Shown here: positions 1,011 through 23,796 of the stretch, one piece after another
Layout of the letters: each line of letters opens with the position of its first letter
Numbering within the stretch: position 1 is the stretch's first letter
Source: Chloroflexota bacterium
GTDB lineage: Bacteria > Chloroflexota > Dehalococcoidia > JACPQD01
Length of the DNA: 64,000 bases
Direction: 5' to 3'
Assembly: GCA_016190665.1 (NCBI GenBank)
Contig: JACPQD010000044.1
Coordinates: 1 to 64,000 of the forward strand
Translations under genes and position numbers: made by a program
The notes under the pieces: generated by a model
Databases searched by the model: none
The model's input: the letters and a program-made list of their open reading frames with translations, nothing else
Told to the model about the DNA's origin: nothing

Positions 1011-2729
1011 ATGTCGGAACCAGTGTATGAAGTCGCATGGCCGCTGGGGAAACTAGCCTATGAGACGGTATCATTGGCCAACCCGGCGGCGGATCTCAGC
1101 GGGAAGACGGTCTGCGAGCTCTGGGACCGGCTCTTCCGCGGCGACGAGATGTTCCAGGGGGTCCGCGAGGCGCTTTCCAGGAAGTATCCGGGTATCAAGT
1201 TCGTCGATTCCACCAATTTCGGCGATACCGTGGGGCTCAAGCGACAAGAGGTGATTGCCGCGCTCCCCGAGAAGCTGCGCGGCCTGGGGTGCAACGCGGT
1301 CATCTCCGCGGTGGGCGCCTGAGGCGCCTGCACGCCCGCCGTGGTGCGGGCGGCCGCCGCGGCCGAGAAGGCCGGCGTGCGCAGCGTGTCCATCGTCTCC
1401 GAAGGCTTCATCAGGCAGGCCCACGCCATTGCCCAGGCCCTCGGGCTGCAAGACCTGGCCATCGCCGAGTACCCCGGCGTTCCCATGGTCGACAGCAAAG
1501 AGGTCCTCCAGAAGAAGGTGTCGGAGACGCTCGTCAAGGAAGTCATCGCCGGGCTGACCAAGCAGGCTTCGATAGCAGTGAAACCGGACGAACCGGGGCG
1601 GAAGGATATCGTCTTCAGGGGCGCCCTGGATGAGGTCCACGAGTTCTTCTACAACAATATGTGGACGGAAGGGCTGCCCATTGTTCCGCCCACCGTCGAC
1701 CGGGTGGAGAAGTTCTTGCGCTTCACCGACCGTTCCCCGGATGAAATCATCGGCGTCCTGCTTCCCGAGAATCGCGAGGCCACCGTCTGGAACGTGGCGG
1801 TCAACGGCGTCATGGCCGGTTGCCGGCCGGAGTACATGCCGGTACTGCTGGCGATAGTCGACTGCATCTCCGCCCCGGAATGGCTGGTCGAGGATGCCGG
1901 CAGCACCCCCGGCTGGGAGCCGCTTATCATTCTGAACGGCCCCATCATGAAGCAACTGGACTTCAACTACGGCGCCTCGGTCATGCGCGTGGGCCGGCAA
2001 GCCAACACCTCCATCGGGCGCTTCCTGAGACTCTATCTGAGGAACGTGGCCGGGCTGCGCATACCGCCCGGCGCCACGGACAAGGGCAGCATCGCCTACA
2101 CCTTCAACGTCGTCCTCTGCGAGAACGAGGATGCCGTCGCCGAGATGGGCTGGCAGCCCTTTAGCGTCGACCGCGGCTTCAAGGCGGGCGACAACGTGGT
2201 CACCGTGCAAAGCTGCGTCAATATCAGCCCGCCGACCTACAGCGGCGGACACGCCGCGGAAGCCCACATGGAGACCCTCGCCGATCTCATCGGGCGGCGC
2301 TCCATGTCCTACTGGACCGCCGTCGCCGCGAACAACGGGCGGTCCTACCCCCTGTTCGTTCTCGGACCGAGCATCGCTGCCGTCATCGCCCGAGACGGCT
2401 GGTCGAAAGACAGGATTCGCCAGTACCTGTACGATAACGTGCGGGCTGAGGCGGGCTATCTGGAGAAGCTCTCCTGGCAGAGCGGCCAGACGGACTTCAG
2501 CTTCTGCAACTGCGTCGAAGACGGCAAAGTATCCCAGGACTTCTGCCAGTCCGACGACCCCAGGCGCATGATACCCGTCTTCCTGAAGCCCGAGTGGATC
2601 GAGATCGTCGTCAGCGGCGACCCCGGCCGGAACCAGAGCAAAGGGTACATGCAGAACCAGAAGCAGGGCGTGCCCGTCTCGCGCAAGATACAGTTGCCCG
2701 CGAACTGGGAACATACTGAACATGGATAA
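1011..2729 (+). CDS. UGSC-family selenoprotein (diverged paralogue, UGAC motif), TGA read as Sec104
   Basis: Reading through the TGA at 1320-1322 gives a 572-residue protein, started at ATG 1011 behind AAGGAGG. The N-terminal part (about 1-165) carries the family motif as U-G-A-C-T right after SAVGA. The C-terminal part (about 205-572) contains WTEGLPIVPPT and NGVMAGCRPEYMP. These align with the three paralogues at 18.3-23.8 kb, which have WTDGLPIVPPT and NAVMAGC at equivalent places. The frame is open on both sides of the TGA and conserved residues continue across it, so this is selenocysteine insertion and not a broken gene. The UGSC family is a known selenoprotein family of unknown biochemical role. 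The U-G-x-C arrangement resembles a redox selenenylsulfide motif, but function is inferred only. It stands alone between a terminator and the iron block. Confidence 0.85.
1320..1352 (+). promoter_or_regulatory. Selenocysteine codon with candidate bacterial SECIS hairpin
   Basis: UGA (1320-1322) is followed after 10 bases by a 7-bp GC stem (1333-1339 with 1346-1352) closing the loop CGTGGT. A G sits at the second loop position, 19 bases after the UGA. Bacterial SECIS elements are expected to have a G in the first two loop positions at about this distance. Confidence 0.6.
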
Positions 2730-12434: not shown

Positions 12435-13238
12435 TCAGGCGATATCCTGAAGCACCTCGTTCATGGCGCCGGTGCGGTAGCCGGCCAGGTCGAGGGTGAT
12501 GTAGGTGTAGCCGAGGGCGCGCAGCCGGGCAGCGACCGCTTCCCGCTTCTCCATGAGGATGGCCATCCCCTCGGCATCCGCCTCGATGCGCGCTATGCTG
12601 TCATGGTGGCGCAGGCGGAGCTGCCTTATCCCCAGTCCCCGCAGATAGTCCTCGCCCTGGGCGATCCGGTCCAGGACGTCCTCGGTGATGGGTGTGCCGT
12701 AGGGGAAACGGGAGGCCAGACAGGCCAGGGACGGCTTCTGCCAGGTGGCAAGGCCCAATTTCCGGGAGAGGGCGCGGATATCCTCCTTGGTGAGGCCCGC
12801 CTCCAGGAGTGGGCTGCGCACGCCGAGCTCGGCGGCAGCGGCGCGGCCGGGGCGGTAGTCGCCCACGTCATCGGCGTTGGAGCCATCGAGCACCCAGGTC
12901 AATCCCTCCCTATCGGCGATGCGGCGCAGGATGCCGAAAAGCTCGTGCTTGCAGTAATAGCAACGCTTGGGGTCGTTGGAGACGAAACAGGGGTCCTCCA
13001 GTTCATGGGACTCGACGACCATATGCCGGATGCCAAGGCGCTCGGCGGTGACGCCCGCCTCGGCGACCTCCGCGGGCGGGTAGGTGGGTGACGCGGCGGT
13101 CACCGCCAGCGCCTTGTCGCCCAGCATTTGGTTCGCGATAGCGGCCAGTAAGGTGCTGTCCACGCCGCCGGAGAAGGCGACCAGGACGGAGCCCATCTCC
13201 TCCAAGTTCGATCTCAGTTTGGCCAGTTTATCTTCCAT
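12435..13238 (-). CDS. larE: LarE, ATP-dependent sacrificial sulfur transferase
   Basis: 267 residues. PP-loop ATPase motif SGGVDST (about 20-26), then [13 protein letters not shown] and [20 protein letters not shown] contains the cysteine known to be sacrificed as sulfur donor in LarE enzymes. LarE thiolates the carboxylated nicotinic acid precursor of the nickel-pincer (NPN) cofactor of lactate racemase-type enzymes. LarB is encoded 3.2 kb away, but no LarC or LarA is in the window. Only one base separates this start from the stop of the oxidoreductase gene at 13240, so the two are co-transcribed. Confidence 0.9.
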
Positions 13239-13239
13239 T

Positions 13240-15183
13240 TCAAATCAGCCTCCCCACCCTCGCGCCGTCGGCAATGGCCATCAGGGCATCTCGCGGCTCA
13301 GCGCAGTCACCGATGACATGCAGCTCAGGAGCCAGGCCTTTGAGTTCCTCCGCCAGCCGGTCCTCCGCCTTCGCGCCCATGGCTAGCACCACGGTGTCGG
13401 CGGGCAGATAGAGGAGCTCGCGATTGTGGGTGAAATACACACCTTTCTCTTTGATTTCATAAAGCGGGGCGTTCTCATAGATACGGACGCCCCTGCCGAT
13501 GAGCCGGTCGCGCAGCGTGAGATACAGGTTGCGCTCCACGTCGCGCCCCAGGCGCGTCCGCGTCGCCAACGAAACCTGCTTACCTTGCCCGGCGAGGAGG
13601 TCGGCCACCTCCATGCCGCGCTCCCGGCCGCCGACGACCACGACCCTTTCGCCCACGCTGACCTTCCCGGCGAAGACGTCGATGGCCTGGACCACGTTGC
13701 CGGAGCGGGCGCCAGGGACCGCGGGGACGATGGGCGAGGCGCCGGTGGCCACCACGACGGCATCGGGCCTTTGCTCCCGGATCAGGTCTTTCGTTACCTC
13801 GGCTTTAAGATTGATTTGGACGCTGGCGTCTTCCAGCGCGCGAAGGCGCTGTCTGAGGAACCGATCGAAGTTCACCTTCGAGGGCTGCCTGGCGGCGACG
13901 TTCCATTGCCCGCCCAGGCGATCGCTCTTTTCATATAGTGACACGTTATGGCCCCGCTGCGCCAGGGCCACGGCCGCCTCGACTCCCGCCAGCCCACCGC
14001 CGACAACCATGACCTTCCTGGGCCGCTCCGCCGGCTTGAGCGCGAACTCGCGCTCGCGCAACAAGGCCGGATTGACGGTGCAGGATACCACGCGCTCCAC
14101 CGAGCCGGGGCTGGCCACGCGGCCCACGCAGTTGTTGCAGTAAATACACCGGGTGATCTCGTCCAGACGCCCGTCGCGGGCCTTGTTCGGCAGGTCGGGG
14201 TCGGCGAGGAGGGCCCGGCCCATGGCCACGAAATCGGCCTCGCCCTCTTGAAGGACCTGTTCGGCGAGCAGTGGGTCGCCGATCTTGCCCACCGTGATAA
14301 CGGGAACCTTCACCACTTTCTTGACGGCCTCCGCCAGATGGGTGATGGCGCCGTCGGGAAAGAAGTGGCAGAGGAACTGCCAGGGCGTGGTCTCCTTGGC
14401 GCTGGCCGAGATATGGAGGGCATCGGCGCCGGCGTTGGCCAGTATGGACGCCTGGCGGAGGGCGTCCTCAATCGTGGTGCCGCCCTCCAGGTAGTCGCTG
14501 CCGTTCATGCGGAAGATGATGGGAAAGTCGCGGCCCACCTTCCGGCGGGTGCGTTCGATAATCTCGCAGGCGAACCGGGCCCTCTTCTCGGGCGTGCCGC
14601 CGTAGTCGTCGATGCGGCGGTTGGTGAAGGGGGAAAGGAACTCGCTGATGAGGTGGCCATGGGCCCCGTGGAACTCGACGCCATCGAAGCCGGCGTCCCT
14701 GACGCGGCGCGCCGCGTCGGAGAAAGCCTCGACGAGCCGCTGAATGTCCTCGAGGGTCGCCGCGCGGGGCGCGACGCCGTACATGGCGCTGGGGACGGCG
14801 GAAGGGCCAACCAGGTCTATCTCGTCTGCGCCATACGCGCTACGAGTGTGAGCATGGGTCATGCCGTGGTGGATGAGCTGTACGGCCATCTTGCCGCCGC
14901 GCTCGTGGACGGCGTCGGCGAGCTGGCGCAGGCGAGGAATGAACTTATCGTCATGGAGGAGCCAGCGGCCGGGCCGGCGTCCCTCCCAGAGGATGCAGAC
15001 AGCGCCGGAGATGATCAGGCCCACGCCTCCCTGCGCCCGCGCGACATAGTAATCGAAGGCGCTGTCGTTGGGGAAGCCCTCACTGTCGCCGGTGAAGGTG
15101 CCCATGGCCGCCATGACGAGGCGATTTTTCACCTCGAGGCTCCCTACCCGGCCGGGGGCGAAAAGGTGAGTGAATTGCGACAT
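13240..15183 (-). CDS. FAD/FMN/4Fe-4S NADH:flavin oxidoreductase (2,4-dienoyl-CoA reductase-like)
   Basis: 647 residues with the three-part plan of the family. An N-terminal old-yellow-enzyme TIM barrel (about 1-340) has [26 protein letters not shown] and [24 protein letters not shown] cluster site with a further Cys in VSCTVNP ligates 4Fe-4S. A C-terminal FAD/NAD module starts at [14 protein letters not shown] and has a second dinucleotide motif, [17 protein letters not shown]. Such enzymes reduce unsaturated acyl-CoAs, trimethylamine-like substrates or steroids; the substrate here is unknown. An AGGAGG site precedes ATG 15183, and larE follows immediately. Confidence 0.9.
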
Positions 15184-15316
15184 GACAGGCCTCCTGTAGT
15201 TAAGCTAGTCTAGCATAGGCAAAGCAGGCGGGCAAGCGGCGCATGGCATTTTTACAAAAAGGGGTGGCGTACGATAACAGTTTTATTACACCCGAGGCGC
15301 GGGGGGGCAAAACATC

Positions 15317-15345
15317 TTGACCGGCCGCAGGGCCGATGCTAGTTT
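15317..15345 (+). promoter_or_regulatory. Candidate promoter for the repetitive secreted protein
   Basis: TTGACC, 17 bases, TAGTTT in the 321-base divergent gap. The -10 box is weak. The remaining bases of the gap show no gene. Confidence 0.35.
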
Positions 15346-15504
15346 GGAATTAAGGTCAGGTGCCATCAGACTTGCTTGAGAGCAGAAAGGGGGCAACGAT
15401 CTGGAATAGGAGTACGTTTCGTCGCGGCGTTGGGGCCGCTGCGATGAAGGAAAGCCGATTATCGCGCCCGATCTATGTGGTAGCTACGCGGAAGGAGCCA
15501 GGAA

Positions 15505-16419
15505 ATGAGGTTTGGTAAGTACTTTGTGGTGGTGTTGGGCATACTTCTCTTCATCGCGCCCGGGCTGACCCTAATGCCGGGGCCGATCCTGGGCCTGGGA
15601 AGCGTCCGGGCGCAGCAGGGGGCTGACGACACGATGACGCCGGGGCGCACCCCCGAGGATAGGACCCCCGGGGTAACTCGCACGCGTACGCCCGGTTCAG
15701 ACGATGCTTTGACGCCGGTGGGCACCGGCACGCCCGAGGATAGAATCCCGGGGGTTACCCGTACGCCGGGGTCAGACGACGCCTTGACGCCCGTGGGCAC
15801 CGGCACCCCCGAGGACAGAATCCCCGGCACCCGCACACCTGGATCAGACGACGCCTTGACGCCCGTGGGCACCGGGACGCCAAGTACACCGATGGTTCCA
15901 GGAACGCCTGTATTGGAGGACAGAACGCCCGTACCCGGAGGCGTTGGAGTAGTCTTCAAGCGCGGCTGGAATCTAGTCGCCGGCCCTGAGGGCACTCAGT
16001 TCCGAGACGTCGGCGCCCCTCTTTTCACATTTCAGGGCGGAAGCTACACGGCGATACCCGGCGCCGCGGGGATAGCCAAGGGCAGCGCCTACTGGGCGTT
16101 CTTCCAGGACGATAAGACAGTGATCATGAATGGACCGGGAGAGGATGCGCACACGGTCACCCTGGCGCCCGGTGAAATGAGAATGGTCGGCAACCCCAGC
16201 GGAACGAAGCCCCTGAAGATCGAGGCCGAGGTCATCTGGACCTTCGACCCGGCCACTGGCTATGCCATGAGCCAGGGATCGACGATGTTGGCCGTGGGGA
16301 GAGGCGCCTGGGTATGGTCCGGTCAGGGCGGAGTCGCCGCCCTTCACGTGGAGAGGCCAGAGGGGCCTGAAAGGCCAGAAGGCCCCGAGAGACCGGAAGG
16401 TCCCGAAAGCCCAGGATAA
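15505..16419 (+). CDS. Secreted protein with Thr-Pro-rich tandem repeats
   Basis: 304 residues behind AAGGAGCC. A signal peptide (about 1-33) ends near RAQQG. Residues 40-145 are three near-identical repeats built on GTPEDRIPGVTRTPGSDDALTPVGT, a low-complexity, probably extended and cell-wall-spanning or glycosylated stalk. A globular domain follows (about 150-280) starting FKRGWNLVAGPEGT. This resembles the domain in many secreted proteins that begins with a GWNLV motif. The end is RPEGPERPEGPE repeats. No enzyme motif is recognisable; a structural or surface role is inferred. Confidence 0.75.
   Translation: MRFGKYFVVVLGILLFIAPGLTLMPGPILGLGSVRAQQGADDTMTPGRTPEDRTPGVTRTRTPGSDDALTPVGTGTPEDRIPGVTRTPGSDDALTPVGTGTPEDRIPGTRTPGSDDALTPVGTGTPSTPMVPGTPVLEDRTPVPGGVGVVFKRGWNLVAGPEGTQFRDVGAPLFTFQGGSYTAIPGAAGIAKGSAYWAFFQDDKTVIMNGPGEDAHTVTLAPGEMRMVGNPSGTKPLKIEAEVIWTFDPATGYAMSQGSTMLAVGRGAWVWSGQGGVAALHVERPEGPERPEGPERPEGPESPG
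15697..15890 (+). repeat. Tandem coding repeat, ~72-75 bp period
   Basis: TCAGACGA recurs at 15697, 15772 and 15844 with strongly conserved intervening DNA, including third codon positions. This suggests recent slippage or recombination and predicts length variation between strains. Confidence 0.75.
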
Positions 16420-16422
16420 GCG

Positions 16423-17211
16423 CTACTCATGACCGCCTTGATTCCGATTTATCAAGGCGGCTAGATACCCTGCCCCGAAGCCGTTGTCGATGTTGACTAC
16501 GGCGACGCCCGCGGCGCAAGAATTCAGCATGGCGAGAAGCGGCGCCAGCCCATTGAAGCTGGCGCCGTAGCCTATACTGGTGGGCACGGCGATCACGGGC
16601 ACGGATACCAGGCCGCTCACTACGCTGGGGAGGGCGCCCTCCATGCCCGCCACAGCCACGACGACGCGGGCCTGATGAAGCCGAGGTAGATGATCGAGGA
16701 GCCGGTGAATGCCGGCCACACCCACGTCGAAGGCGCGGTCCACCTCATTCCCCATTAGCTCGGCGGTGACGGCCGCCTCCTCCGCCACAGGGAGGTCGGC
16801 GGTGCCGCCGCTGACCACCATGACGCCGGGCCGTAGCTTGCCCTCGGACCGGTTGAGCACCAGCGCGCGAGCCAGTTCGTTGTAGGCAGCGTCAGGGAGG
16901 CGCTCCTTGACCAACTGGAAGGCGTCCGGAGAGCACCGCGTGACCAGGAGGCGGTCCGTGTGGGAGGCGAGACTGCAGGCAATGGCGCAGACCTGCTCCG
17001 CGCTCTTGCCGTGCCCCAGGACCACTTCGGGAAAGCCCTGCCGCAGCGAGCGATGGTGGTCCACCTTGGCGAAGCCCAGGTCCTCGTAGGGCAATACCCG
17101 CAGCTTAGCCAGGGCTTGCTCGATGGAAAGCTCTCCGCTCTTGACCTTCTCCAGCAGTTCCCGGATATTCTGGCTATCTATGGTTATCGCTCCCGTCCAA
17201 AAGTCATTCAT
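16423..17211 (-). CDS. larB: LarB, nickel-pincer cofactor biosynthesis carboxylase
   Basis: 262 residues. A PurE-like (AIR carboxylase) fold in the C-terminal half, with [19 protein letters not shown] and the glycine-rich [10 protein letters not shown] loop. The N-terminal half has [18 protein letters not shown] and [11 protein letters not shown], both typical of LarB. LarB carboxylates and hydrolyses nicotinic acid adenine dinucleotide in the first step of NPN cofactor synthesis. Together with larE at 12435 it indicates that the organism makes the cofactor. The partner LarC and any LarA-type racemase must lie elsewhere. It faces the repetitive secreted protein with a three-base gap. Confidence 0.9.
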
Positions 17212-18344: not shown

Positions 18345-20036
18345 CTACCTGCGCGACCTTCTGAAGTCGTTCATCGACTTCACGGGCGTCCCATCCTTGA
18401 AGGCGATGGGCCGCGTAACGGCCCTCGTAGAGTCGAAGAAGCTGGCCACGAAGGACGCGTGGGACCCGCCGCCCCCCGCCACAAGAACCATGATTTCCTC
18501 CGGCGAGCTGGCCACCTTGTGTATGGGGTGTTCCTTCACCAGGGAATGCCCTTTCACCCGCTCGGAGATAATGTAGGGCGGATAGGGGGCGCGGGCATAC
18601 TTGAAGAGGTAATCACGGATAGACTTCTTGTCGAAGCCATCCCGCTTCAGCACCATCGCCTGCTCCGGTCCGAAAATGCACAGCGGCTGGCCACCGCCGG
18701 CTATGATGTTGTTAGAGCCGGAGGCGACCATGTTGCCCACCATGGTGCTCAGCAGCCCCTTGCCCGTGGTGCTCATCATGTCAATGATATTGTGCGGGGC
18801 CGCGCCCCCGAAGACGGTCACCGTGGAGACGTCCTCCGGGTAGCCCAGCTCCACATGCAGCGGCTCCCAGGGGTTCTCGTCCTCGTTCTCAGCGATGCAC
18901 AGCGAATACTTCCCCGCCTGGCCGAAGGTCGACCGGTCGTAGATGCCCGGCTCGCCCCCAGCGATGTTCAGCACCACCAGGCGCACTGCCCTGCCAATGG
19001 TGGCGTTGGCCCGCATCACGGAGCCAAAGAGCCCGTAGCCGTAGTTCACCTCCAGCTCCTTGACCACCGGCCCGTTAATTATCACGATAGGCGTCGCCGG
19101 GTTAGTCGTGGCGATGATGCCCGGCAGGTTGAACTCCGGCGCGGACATGGCCTCCACCGCCGCCAGCACCACAGGGAAGTACGCCGGCAGACAGCCCGCC
19201 ATCACCGCGTTGATGGCTATCTTCTCCACCGTCGCCTTGCCCCGGCGCGGCTTGAAGACGGCCACTACCTCCCGGGGATCGCGGTCGGTGTACTCCAGCA
19301 TCCGCGCCACTTCGGAACGGGTGGGCGGAACGATGGGCAGCCCGTCGGTCCAGCCCCTTCCGTAGAAGAGGCGATTGGCGGCCTCGATCTCAGCGCTTCC
19401 CTTGACCTCCACCCCCTCGGCGGCGAAGGCGGGCCGGCTGCGCACCGCGGCCTTAGGCTGCGGGTATCCCTTATCTCGGTATTCCTCATCCAGCTTGCCG
19501 GCTGGGGTGGTGAGCACGTGGACGATCTCCGGGAGGTTCCGCTCCGCGTGGACTTTGACCTGCTCGGGCGTGAAGCGCTTGGGCGGGTGCGGCTCGAGGA
19601 CCACCGGCAACTGAGGCAGGCCCAGGGCGGTCAGCTCCTCCCTGGCCAGTTGCCCAAACTCCTCGGAGGCCACATAGGCCGTGGGCACACCCCTCTTCTC
19701 CAGCTCGACCACATCGTGGACACTCCACGAAGTGCAGGAGCCTCAGTCGCCGTGGGCGTGGACCACGAAGGCGGCCTTCTTCGCCAGGTCGTCAAGCACT
19801 TCGGGAGGCGTCGGGCGCGCCGTGTCCGGCTTCTTATATCTCACCGCGCCGGCGAGGCCGTACTTGGCGCTGAGCACCTCCTCCACCCGCTCCAGATAGA
19901 CGTCGCTATTGATCTTGTTGTTATCAATAAAACAACCGATCTTGCCTTCGAGGGTGTCCAGGCGGGAAGCCAGGTTCAGCGCCACCGCATCGACCTCGCC
20001 TATCGGGTTGAGCAGGACATCTGTCTGTGTGGCCAT
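18345..20036 (-). CDS. UGSC-family selenoprotein (array gene 3), TGA read as Sec98
   Basis: 563 residues when TGA 19743-19745 is read as selenocysteine. The motif reads HAHGD-U-G-S-C-TSWSVHDVVELE, the family hallmark. The C-terminal part contains GWTDGLPIVPPT (about 229-240), NAVMAGC and a long conserved block with GGEPGIYDRSTFGQAG. A stop here would remove 83% of the protein, yet the downstream frame is open and closely matches two neighbouring paralogues. The start follows the previous gene's stop by two bases (AAGGAGG inside that gene), so translation is coupled. A redox role for the Sec/Cys pair is likely; the substrate is unknown. Confidence 0.92.
19714..19745 (-). promoter_or_regulatory. 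Sec codon and bacterial SECIS candidate
   Basis: TGA at 19745-19743, 12 bases, then the perfect 7-bp stem TCGTGGA/TCCACGA around the loop GTG. The loop G is 20 bases after the TGA. The same hairpin occurs in the two adjacent paralogues. Confidence 0.75.
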
Positions 20037-20038
20037 GG

Positions 20039-21730
20039 TTACTTCGCCCTCCTTCTCTTGAACTCCTCAACTGTCTTAACTAGGGCGCCATTCTTCAGGG
20101 CGAGGGGCCTCGAGGCGGCCCGCGTGGCGTCCAGGAAGCTGGCTACGAAGGACGAGTGGGAGCCTCCGCCGCCGGCCACCATAATCATGATCTCGTCTGG
20201 ACTCAGCGCCACCCGATGTATAGGGTGGTCCTGCCAGGTGAAGCACAGCTCCTCGTTCTCCGCGCTAATGGAATAGGCGGGATAAGGGGCGCGAGCGTAC
20301 TCGTAGATGTAGTCGCGGACCTTCTTCTTATCGAAGCCGTCGCGGGCCAGCACGGCCGCCTGCTCCGGACCGAGAATGACCAGCGGCTGGCCGCCGCCGG
20401 TGCAGATGTTGTTGCTGCCCGTGGCCACCAGGTTGCCGCAGATGGTGGAGAGGATACCCTCCGCTGTGGTGCTGGTCATGTCCAGGATGTTCTGCGGCGC
20501 CGCGCCGCCGAAGACGGTCACCACGGAGGCGTCCTTCGAGTATCCCAGCTCCACGTGCAGCGGCTCCCAGGGGTTCTCCGCTTCGTTCTCGGCGATACAC
20601 ATCGAGTACTTGCCCGCCTGGCCGAAAGTGGAGCGGTCGTAGATGCCCGGCTCCCCTCCCGCGATGTTCAGCACCACCAGGCGCACCGCACGACCTATCG
20701 TGGCGTTAGCCCGCATCACGGACCCGAAGAGCCCGTAGCCGCAGTTCACCTCGAGTTCCTTCACCACCGGCCCGTTCATGATGACCATGGGCGACGCGGG
20801 GTTCGTCGTGGCGATGATGCCCTGCAGGTTGAACCTGGGTTCACCCATGGCCTCCACGGCCGCCAGCACCACCGGGAAGTACTCCGGGACGCACCCCGCC
20901 ATCACGGCGTTGATGGCTATCTTCTCCACCGTCGCCTTGCCGCTCCGCGGCTTGAAAACGGCCACCTCCTCCTGGGGGTCGCGGTCGGTGTACGCCAGCA
21001 TTTTCTCCACCGCCGAGCGCGTCGGCGGGATGATAGGCAGGCCGTCGGTCCAACCCCGGCCGTAGAAGATGCGGTTTGCCGCCGTGGGGCTCCCCTTGAG
21101 CTCCAGCGACTCCGGTGCGAAGGCGGGCCGGCTGCGCACCGCCGCCTTGGGCTGAGGGTAGGCTTTCTTGCGATATTCCTCGACCAGCTCTTCGGCGGGC
21201 GTGGTCAGCACGTGCACCACCTCGGCCAGCGCCTTATCAGCGAAGGGGCGGAACTGGTCCGCCGTGAAGCGCTTGGGCGGGTGCGGCGACATGATGATAG
21301 GAAGCTGGGGCATGCCCAGCGCTTCCGAGTCGTCCCGGCCCAGTCGGGCGAACTCCTCGGAGGCGAAGTAGGCCGTGGGAATGCCCCTTTTCTCCAGCTC
21401 GACGACGTCGTGGACACTCCACGAGGTGCAGGAGCCTCAGTCGGCGTGGGCGTGGACGACAAAATCACACTTCGCCGCCATCTCATCGATAATCTCCTGA
21501 GGGGCAGGCACGCTAGAGAGAGGCTTCGTCCGCATGATGGCTTCCGCCATACCGTATTTCTCTTTGAGAAGCTCCAACAGGCGCGCCAGGAAGACATCGC
21601 TGTTCACCTTGTGGTTGTCGATGAAGCCACCCACCGTCCCCTCCAGGCTCTTCAGCCTAGGGGCCAGCTTCAGTTGCTGCACGTCGACTTCCCCGACGGG
21701 GTTGAGCAGAACGTCAGTTTCAGCTACCAT
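20039..21730 (-). CDS. UGSC-family selenoprotein (array gene 2), TGA read as Sec98
   Basis: 563 residues through TGA 21437-21439. GGAGG is five bases before ATG 21730. The N-terminal 97 residues begin MVAETDVLLNPVGEVD and end FVVHAHAD, then U-G-S-C. The rest is colinear with array gene 3 with no gaps in length, and similarity stays high after the TGA. The two genes arose by tandem duplication and are retained as full-length copies, which argues for separate substrates or dosage rather than decay. Between this gene and array gene 1 is a 386-base gap with three hairpins. Confidence 0.92.
21408..21439 (-). promoter_or_regulatory. Sec codon and bacterial SECIS candidate
   Basis: Same layout as at 19714-19745: TGA, 12 bases, TCGTGGA-GTG-TCCACGA. 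The base changes in this region relative to the other copies fall outside the stem. Confidence 0.75.
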
Positions 21731-22116: not shown

Positions 22117-23796
22117 TTAACTCAGGGTGAACTCCTGCACCGATTTCACGGGCGTCCCGTCCTTCAGGGCGATGGGGCGCGTGACCGCCCGCGTGCCATC
22201 GAAGAAGCTGGCGACGAAGGAGGAATGGGAGCCCCCGCCGCCGGCCACCATGATCATGATCTCCTCCGGGCTGCTGGCCACTGTGTGAACTGGGTGGTCC
22301 TGCCAGGTGAAGCATAGGTCCTCGTGATCGGCGGCGATAGTGTACGGCGGATAGGGGGCTCGTGCGTACTCGTAAATGTATTCCCGTATCTTCTGCTTGT
22401 TGAAGCCATCCCGCGCCAGCACGGCGGCTTGCTCCGGCCCGAAGATAATGAGCGGCTGGCCGGCGCCGGCGGCGATATTGTTGCTGCCGGAGGCCACCAT
22501 GTTGCCGCACATGGTGGACAGGATGCCCTCCCCTGTGGTGCTGGTCATATCCAGCACGTTCTGGGGCGCCGCGCCGCCAAAGACGGTCACTGTGGATACC
22601 TCTTTGCGGTAGCCACGCTCCACGTTCAAAGGCTCCCAGGGGTTCTCCGCCTCGTTCTCGGCCATGCAGAGGGAGTATTTGCCCGCCTGGCCGAAGGTGG
22701 AGCGGTCATAGATGCCCGGCTCACCGCCAGCTATGTTCAGCACCACCAGGCGGACCGCGCGGCCGATGGCGGCGTTGGCCCGCATCACCGAGCCAAACAG
22801 GCCATAGCCGCAGTTAACCTCCAGCTCCTTCACCACGGGCCCATTGATGATGAGCAGCGGCGAAGCGGGGTTGGTGGTGGCGATGATGCCCGCCAGATTG
22901 AACTCCGGCGCCGCCATCGCCTCCACCGCGGCCAGGACTACGGGGAAGTACTCCGGAATGCACCCGGCCATCACCGCGTTGATGGCTATTTTCTCCACCG
23001 TAGCCTTGCCGCGACGCGGCTTGAAGATCGCCATCACCTCATCAGGGTCCCGGTCAGTGTACTGGAGCATCCGGGCCACCGCCGGGCGAGTGGGTGGGAT
23101 GATGGGCAGGCCGTCCGTCCAGCCGCGTCCGTAGAAGAGACGGTTGGCGGCCTCGATGCTGCCGCGCACCTCCGGGCCCTCGGCGGCGAAGACGGGCCGG
23201 CTCCTGACGACGGCCTTGGGCCTGGGGTATTCCTTGTTCCGGTACTCCTTCGCCAACTGGTCGGCCGGCGTCGTCAAGACGTGGACGATCTCGGGGACGG
23301 CGGCATCGGCGAAGGTGCGGAACTGGTCGGCGGTGTAGCGCTTGGGGGGGTGAGGGACGACAATGATGGGCAGTTGTGGCATACCCAGCGCCAACAACTC
23401 CTCCTTGGCCAGGAGCGCGAACTCCTCCGAAGCAATGTAGGCAGTGGGGACGCCCTTTTGCTCCAGCTCGACGACATCGTGGACACTCCACGAGGTGCAG
23501 GAGCCTCAATCAGCGTGGGCATGCACCACAAAGGCGCTCTTCTCGACCTCAGCCATCACCGTCGGCGGCACGGGCTTGGAGGAGCTGGGCTTCCTGGTGA
23601 TGAAGGAGCTGCTCATGCCGTGTTTTTCGACCAGCAACTCGGCGACGCGCGCGATGAGGACATCGCTGTTCACCTTGTTGTTATCGATGAAGCCGCCGGC
23701 TGTGCCCTGAAGCGTTTTCAGCCGGGGGGCCAGCTTGAGTTCCGCCGCATCCACCTCTCCCACGGGGTTAAGCAGGACATCCGTCTCGGCAACCAC
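22117..23796 (-). CDS. UGSC-family selenoprotein (array gene 1), TGA read as Sec97
   Basis: 559 residues through TGA 23506-23508, starting at GTG 23796 behind GGAGGAGG. It has the same plan as the other array members: MVAETDVLLNPVGEVDAAEL, then VVHAHAD-U-GSCTSWSVHD, then GWTDGLPIIPPT and NAVMAGCIPEYFP. It is the promoter-proximal copy. In all three array proteins the residues next to Sec are identical (U-GSCTSWSVHDVVELE), while the first ~95 residues and the region around 110-160 vary more. That pattern fits a common redox centre with different binding surfaces. Selenocysteine insertion genes (selA, selB, selC, selD) are not in the window. Confidence 0.92.
23477..23508 (-). promoter_or_regulatory. 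Sec codon and bacterial SECIS candidate
   Basis: Third copy of TGA, 12 bases, TCGTGGA-GTG-TCCACGA. Confidence 0.75.

Follow-up and report, generated by a model that had tools for sequence, protein, structure and literature searches.

In a 64,000-nucleotide stretch of Chloroflexota DNA (the window), four UGSC-family genes carry a hairpin directly downstream of an in-frame UGA, and we conclude that these hairpins are very likely bacterial SECIS (bSECIS) elements by which the UGA would be read as selenocysteine (Sec). The position of the hairpins, their stems, the constraint on the codons that encode them, the loss of the pattern in homologues with cysteine (Cys) at the site, and the presence of SelA, SelB and SelD in the same genome are all shown.

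Three of the genes form an array on the minus strand. In each of them a TGA, 12 nucleotides and the sequence TCGTGGA-GTG-TCCACGA recur with no mismatch (23477-23508, 21408-21439 and 19714-19745, all minus strand), with the hairpin starting 13 bases past the TGA and the loop G being the 20th base after it; the same pattern occurred in none of 100 dinucleotide shuffles. Both the exact shared hairpin and the loop distance had been proposed in a sequence-only reading, and both hold. Its further claim, that the hairpin coincides with the codons for S-W-S-V-H-D and that even the wobble positions are identical in all three copies, holds within the hairpin, where 17 of 17 bases are common to the trio; the flanking wobbles alone vary (nt 12 is C, C, T and nt 30 is T, C, T, counting from the first base after the UGA). 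For gene 4, the described GC stem (CGCCCGC/GCGGGCG) and CGTGGT loop (1340-1345) were confirmed, but the claim that they lie at the same distance was off by one base, as the loop G is the 19th base after the UGA. The trio stem pairs nt 13-19 with nt 23-29 (i + j = 42, that is, register 42) and the stem of gene 4 is in register 41. In register 42, third codon positions pair with third codon positions (12-30, 15-27 and 18-24), so that selection on the RNA can be separated from selection on the protein.

Table 1. Coordinates of the UGSC genes, their UGA codons and hairpins in the window
Feature	Positions	Strand	Basis and details
UGSC selenoprotein gene 1	22117..23796	-	560 codons including stop, GTG start; translation with TGA as U; PF24696 144.8 bits (cut-off 25)
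UGA read as Sec, gene 1	23506..23508	-	In-frame TGA, translation; residue 97 (U-G-S-C)
bSECIS hairpin, gene 1	23477..23493	-	5' arm 23493-23487, loop GUG 23486-23484, 3' arm 23483-23477; MFE -9.2 kcal/mol; synonymous null p 0.021
UGSC selenoprotein gene 2	20039..21730	-	Translation; PF24696 159.5 bits
UGA read as Sec, gene 2	21437..21439	-	In-frame TGA, translation; residue 98
bSECIS hairpin, gene 2	21408..21424	-	MFE -9.1; synonymous null p 0.028
UGSC selenoprotein gene 3	18345..20036	-	Translation; PF24696 147.5 bits
UGA read as Sec, gene 3	19743..19745	-	In-frame TGA, translation; residue 98
bSECIS hairpin, gene 3	19714..19730	-	MFE -9.2; synonymous null p 0.020
UGSC selenoprotein gene 4 (U-G-A-C-T type)	1011..2729	+	Frame; PF24696 92.6 bits for 1023-2729
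UGA read as Sec, gene 4	1320..1322	+	In-frame TGA
bSECIS hairpin, gene 4	1333..1352	+	Arms 1333-1339 and 1346-1352, loop CGUGGU 1340-1345; MFE -14.1; p 0.005

All four genes match the Pfam family PF24696 (92.6-159.5 bits, gathering score 25). They miss the 125-bit equivalog cut-off of NF041046 (116.4, 124.7, 124.0 and 58.4 bits) and are therefore filed under the Pfam family only. The UGSC domain of gene 1 is fused to a C-terminal domain without assignment, and the ATG start of gene 4 at 1011 is our choice.

The window hairpins agree with the bSECIS model of bSECISearch (as given in PMC13188914), which specifies an upper stem of 4-16 bp, a loop of 3-9 nt with a G in its first two positions, 16-37 nt from UGA to loop and an MFE of at most -7.5 kcal/mol. 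The trio has a coding-region hairpin just past the UGA, with a 7 bp stem and a 3 nt loop with G at position 1. A G occupies one of the first two loop positions in all four genes, the spacing is 19 nt for the trio and 17 nt for gene 4, inside the range of 16-37 nt, and the MFE calculated on 21 nt (-9.1 to -9.2 in the trio, -14.1 in gene 4) meets the limit. The chance of such a hairpin must be judged with the protein sequence fixed; under this synonymous-codon null, p is 0.02-0.03 for each trio hairpin and 0.005 for gene 4. These single-hairpin values are modest, and the strong case rests on the family-wide data.

Such data are available within the source genome itself (G000), a metagenome-assembled genome (MAG) of 4,998,043 bases in 107 contigs, 96.55% complete and 6.13% contaminated. 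In a PF24696 search, 150 of 208 candidates were scored and all 150 matched; reading these UGSC domains placed a TGA exactly at the U-G-x-C site in 146 of them, with four lacking it. A further 28 places with one TGA came from a second query, which brings the total to at least 174 UGA-type UGSC places; 146 of these were read, and the added 28 were not read base by base. Sites in this genome were picked as an in-frame TGA followed by GG, and glycine as the next codon is thus partly by construction. Strain mixing as the source of the high count was rejected: the best nucleotide identity between copies is 89.5%, 74 of the 150 have no blastn neighbor, and it does not explain the 174, since a single 350 kb contig carries 25 of them (two contigs together hold 47).

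Named records with related UGSC genes include Dehalococcoidia, from which we infer that the source genome is Dehalococcoidia-like; closed chromosomes of this class hold 6-8 such genes, and another genome (G027) holds 46. A scan of the class, in which at most eight candidates were scored per genome, detected a UGSC gene in 132 of 393 genomes, and the 207 first-look candidates of the source genome were far above the 50 of the next. The largest bacterial selenoproteomes we found in print comprise 63 genes (a Methylomirabilota MAG) and, before that, 57 (an Olavius symbiont) (PMC13188914), with earlier and smaller records in PMC12013277 and PMC1794560. These are, like ours, counts of predicted selenoprotein genes, and the 63 likewise come from a MAG, whereas here at least 174 come from one family alone. 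We found no selenoproteome larger than 63 in the open-licence literature searched, coverage of which is incomplete, and regard the scale of the expansion in one genome as new. The genes share with the known UGSC family (PF24696; NF041046; GOS metagenomes, PMC2398784) the U-G-x-C motif, a predominance of Sec over Cys (255 versus 21 in GOS Table 2) and fusion to a second domain; what sets them apart from the GOS family is their number in a single genome.

A first rival explanation is that a conserved S-W-x-x-H-D motif gives rise to the hairpin as a by-product, its codons being complementary by chance. In its favor, TCN TGG .. CAY GAY sets four stem pairs, Natronomonas and similar Cys homologues keep S-W-T-M-H-D, and all five pairs form in 2 of the 11 Cys homologues when U at nt 21 (U21) is not required. 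This explanation is very unlikely and is already contradicted by the folding and codon data. When seven-codon windows of the 146 genes were recoded synonymously, the sole over-structured window was codons U+4 to U+10 (-8.84 versus -3.51 kcal/mol for the null, mean z -2.46, p ≤ 0.05 in 63% of genes); the mean z of six control windows ranged from -0.16 to 0.23. Synonymous codons are constrained far past codon usage and precisely at the stem and loop wobbles, the constraint being strongest at U+7 (2.04 bits, z 63), followed by U+5 (1.42 bits, z 50). The same amino acid is encoded differently by position: pooled Cys codons are TGC 242/TGT 28 at U+3 and TGT in 59 of 59 cases at U+7 (p 5e-44), a split seen both in the source genome (TGC 126/TGT 19; TGT 33/33) and outside it (TGC 116/TGT 9; TGT 26/26). 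Serine codons are mixed at U+2, mostly TCG at U+5, and AGT at U+7 (37/37 in the source genome, 70/73 outside), while leucine at U+7 is CTT in 29 of 34 cases, CTT being 11% of the leucine codons in these genes.

The wobble at U+7 is particularly informative against the by-product explanation, as U21 is unrelated to pairing yet near-fixed in Sec genes and missing in Cys homologues. A U is present there in 208 of 227 Sec codons and in 0 of the 10 Cys homologues with a comparable codon (p 1.6e-10); this count omits Val and some other codons, leaving 227 of 271 Sec sites and 10 of 11 Cys homologues. Moreover, Sec copies swap W/H for L/N, G/L, S/L, R/R or A/R, and most still pair. Given the synonymous nulls, the position-specific codons and the Cys homologues, it is very likely that coding alone does not account for the hairpin.

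Covariation points the same way, within limits. An earlier register-42 set had been chosen by its own stems, which is circular, and the count was repeated with classes set by amino acids. In class X (213 of the 271 Sec sites), the pair 18-24, which joins two wobble positions, is G-C in 130 and C-G in 32 of 178 distinct Sec hairpins and is canonical in 164 of the 178, against 64% when shuffled; mean pairing is 0.80 in register and at most 0.49 when slid by 1-3. A five-pair stem together with U21 is found in 178 of 213 class X Sec sites and in 0 of 11 Cys homologues. In class Y, all five pairs 13-17 form in register 41 in 37 of 58 sites, and since shuffled sites pair as well as the observed ones at most positions, this class adds little covariation. 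The SECIS-like interpretation in the sequence-only reading would have been refuted if stem conservation had been lost in related UGSC genes once coding constraint was removed; this comparison was run, and the interpretation is not refuted but supported, with read-through remaining an inference. Permuting codons within amino-acid pairs in the source genome gave nearly the observed pairing (84.1 versus 85; 83.3 versus 84), so synonymous covariation beyond a fixed consensus is not shown for that genome alone, and tree-based independent contrasts were not significant, being underpowered with too few events. A stem of at least 4 bp in register 41 or 42 is present in 136 of 146 genes and absent from 10 (k39, 41, 58, 68, 70, 71, 74, 81, 123 and 135). 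One clade with the motif U-G-A-C-T-S-W-L-L-Y-A-A (L086, L088, L092 and L100; k68, k70, k74 and k82) keeps the UGA with no clear in-register hairpin, and could conceivably use another signal.

A second rival holds that the trio hairpins are identical through recent duplication or a gene-converted segment. The genes are indeed adjacent, and gene 2 shares 76% protein identity with gene 1 and 71% with gene 3. However, same-amino-acid codons outside the hairpin are identical in just 44/72, 31/59 and 27/56 cases (48-61%), from which it follows that the copies are not fresh duplicates, and hairpins of identical or compensated sequence are found in Betaproteobacteria, Binatota, Rokubacteria and Deltaproteobacteria. 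This rival is therefore also contradicted, and very unlikely. The external set comprises 125 Sec sites after removal of identical stretches (42 on contigs of named genomes, 22 at loci from the search that covered the closed chromosomes, 2 from plasmids and 59 from four further genomes), and these have the same pattern with compensated stems, for example TCATGCA-GTA-TGCATGA (L279), TCCTGG-CTTGT-CCAGGA (L303) and CCCTC..GAGGG (L329). The Cys homologues derive from 24 plasmid records, from which 14 regions were read; two with Met at the site (Vibrio L269 and Sporomusa L272) were left out and two have UGA, and with L177 this gives 11, from haloarchaea, Embleya, Roseovarius, Variovorax, Arthrobacter and Neorhizobium. 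The two UGA-type plasmid genes, both with the hairpin, are on the conjugative plasmids p2-T1 of Acidovorax sp. T1 (L262) and pBEN of Paracoccus versutus (L261). Both are unannotated or cut short in annotation tables; on p2-T1 the annotation ends at 1719 as a short 'hypothetical protein'. A search of phages gave no UGSC match.

The apical loops of the source genome fall into three types, which is where they depart from the bSECIS model: GU (58 genes), P[AS]..R (50) and CUUG (29), with 9 others. The three types are similarly over-structured (mean z -2.61, -2.58 and -2.54, respectively; -0.57 for the others). Of the 213 class X sites, 160 have G at nt 20 and 195 have U at nt 21; the CUUG type retains U21 without G20. 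The loop-G rule is met in the best-scoring fold by 111 of the 146 genes, 106 of which also satisfy stem and loop size, and the CUUG type fails it. A GU contact fits the SelB proteins of E. coli and Moorella. Which loop bases matter is inferred here from conservation, and SelB binding itself is also an inference. We regard as new the coexistence of one SelB with three kinds of apical loop, among them CUUG, whose best fold does not satisfy the published loop-G rule.

The machinery for Sec insertion is encoded in the source genome. SelA, SelB and SelD score 568, 353 and 386 bits, each above its cut-off; SelA is full length, SelB (619 aa) is full length with a GTPase and winged helices, and SelD has its own UGA in the context AAGUAAK. 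Only one SelB lies above the cut-off, the next matches falling below it. Neither the window nor the selA/selB region gave a SECIS or tRNA-Sec match in Rfam scans, and no tRNA-Sec was found in the 96.55% complete, 107-contig assembly by RF01852, by pattern or by a lineage covariance model; six RF01852 matches were rejected as serine or other tRNAs by ARAGORN. RF01852 did find tRNA-Sec in all seven other UGSC-bearing genomes searched. An assembly gap is the simplest reading of its absence, although this is unproven. UGA has not been reassigned, as 32 of the 146 UGSC genes end in TGA.

The missing tRNA-Sec lends some support to a third rival, namely that the genes are decayed, or that UGA is read by near-cognate suppression and the hairpin serves another role such as pausing; three copies in the source genome have also lost both the U and the C. 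We consider this very unlikely. The UGA is at one and the same site in 146 of 150 domains with the frame open past it, SelA, SelB and SelD are intact, and the hairpin pattern is missing from the three Ser-type copies (MFE -2.8 to -5.9).

In the Sec-insertion reading that we prefer, the hairpin lies inside the reading frame. While the UGA occupies the A site of the ribosome, SelB loaded with Sec-tRNA would bind the apical loop, some 20 nt downstream, and deliver selenocysteine, so that read-through would yield the full-length U-G-x-C protein. The RNA would be selected through synonymous codons, the loop wobble U21 and paired amino-acid swaps at U+6 and U+9. A bolder reading, which we consider somewhat more likely than not, is that a single family supplies this bacterium with at least 174 selenoproteins, nearly three times as many as in the largest selenoproteome we found in print; that its single SelB reads three apical-loop classes, with CUUG outside the published loop-G rule; and that upkeep of the hairpin drove paired amino-acid swaps near the active site (W/H, L/N, G/L, S/L, R/R, A/R), RNA recoding thus shaping the protein. 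More than 100 divergent copies in one genome hold codon bias constant, allowing the rules of SECIS function to be read from sequence: the stem positions at which pairing is required, the loop bases on which SelB depends and the extent to which the protein bends to the RNA. The use of Sec is on a scale not reported in the literature searched, and, as the two plasmid copies illustrate, annotation misses such UGA-containing genes.

The chemistry of the U-G-x-C site is likewise inferred. A thioredoxin-like fold was suggested for UGSC from the GOS data (PMC2398784), whereas our predicted model of the domain resembles a generic Rossmann or flavodoxin-like domain, with generic Rossmann-like matches of Z up to 10.9 in a structure search. 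This is weak evidence and does not exclude a thioredoxin fold. For the C-terminal domain no structure match reached Z ≥ 8, and its assignment as a fumarate hydratase subunit was rejected since the best Foldseek match was too weak (E 5e-4, TM 0.27). A PDB profile search gave nothing below E 0.6. In the model, Sec98 is predicted to open a helix that follows a strand, and the neighbors of the plasmid UGSC genes include thioredoxin reductase and thioredoxin; the placement and these neighbors would fit a possible redox site but prove nothing.

Some further copies and neighbors are worth recording. In L071 of the source genome (C101:30937-31443) the motif reads U-G-T-U, a second in-frame TGA replacing the partner Cys codon, which could be a diselenide pair or a mutation. 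L117, L135 and L149 (contigs C62, C101 and C58) have S-G-V-W/Y in place of U-G-x-C, with Sec and partner Cys both gone, and may have taken on a new function without redox chemistry. In the window, LarE and LarB (nickel-pincer cofactor) and an old-yellow-enzyme-like flavoprotein adjoin the UGSC trio (12435-17211, minus strand), and a group II intron D1-D4 match (RF02001, 90.3 bits) lies at 1-118 on the minus strand, truncated by the window edge.
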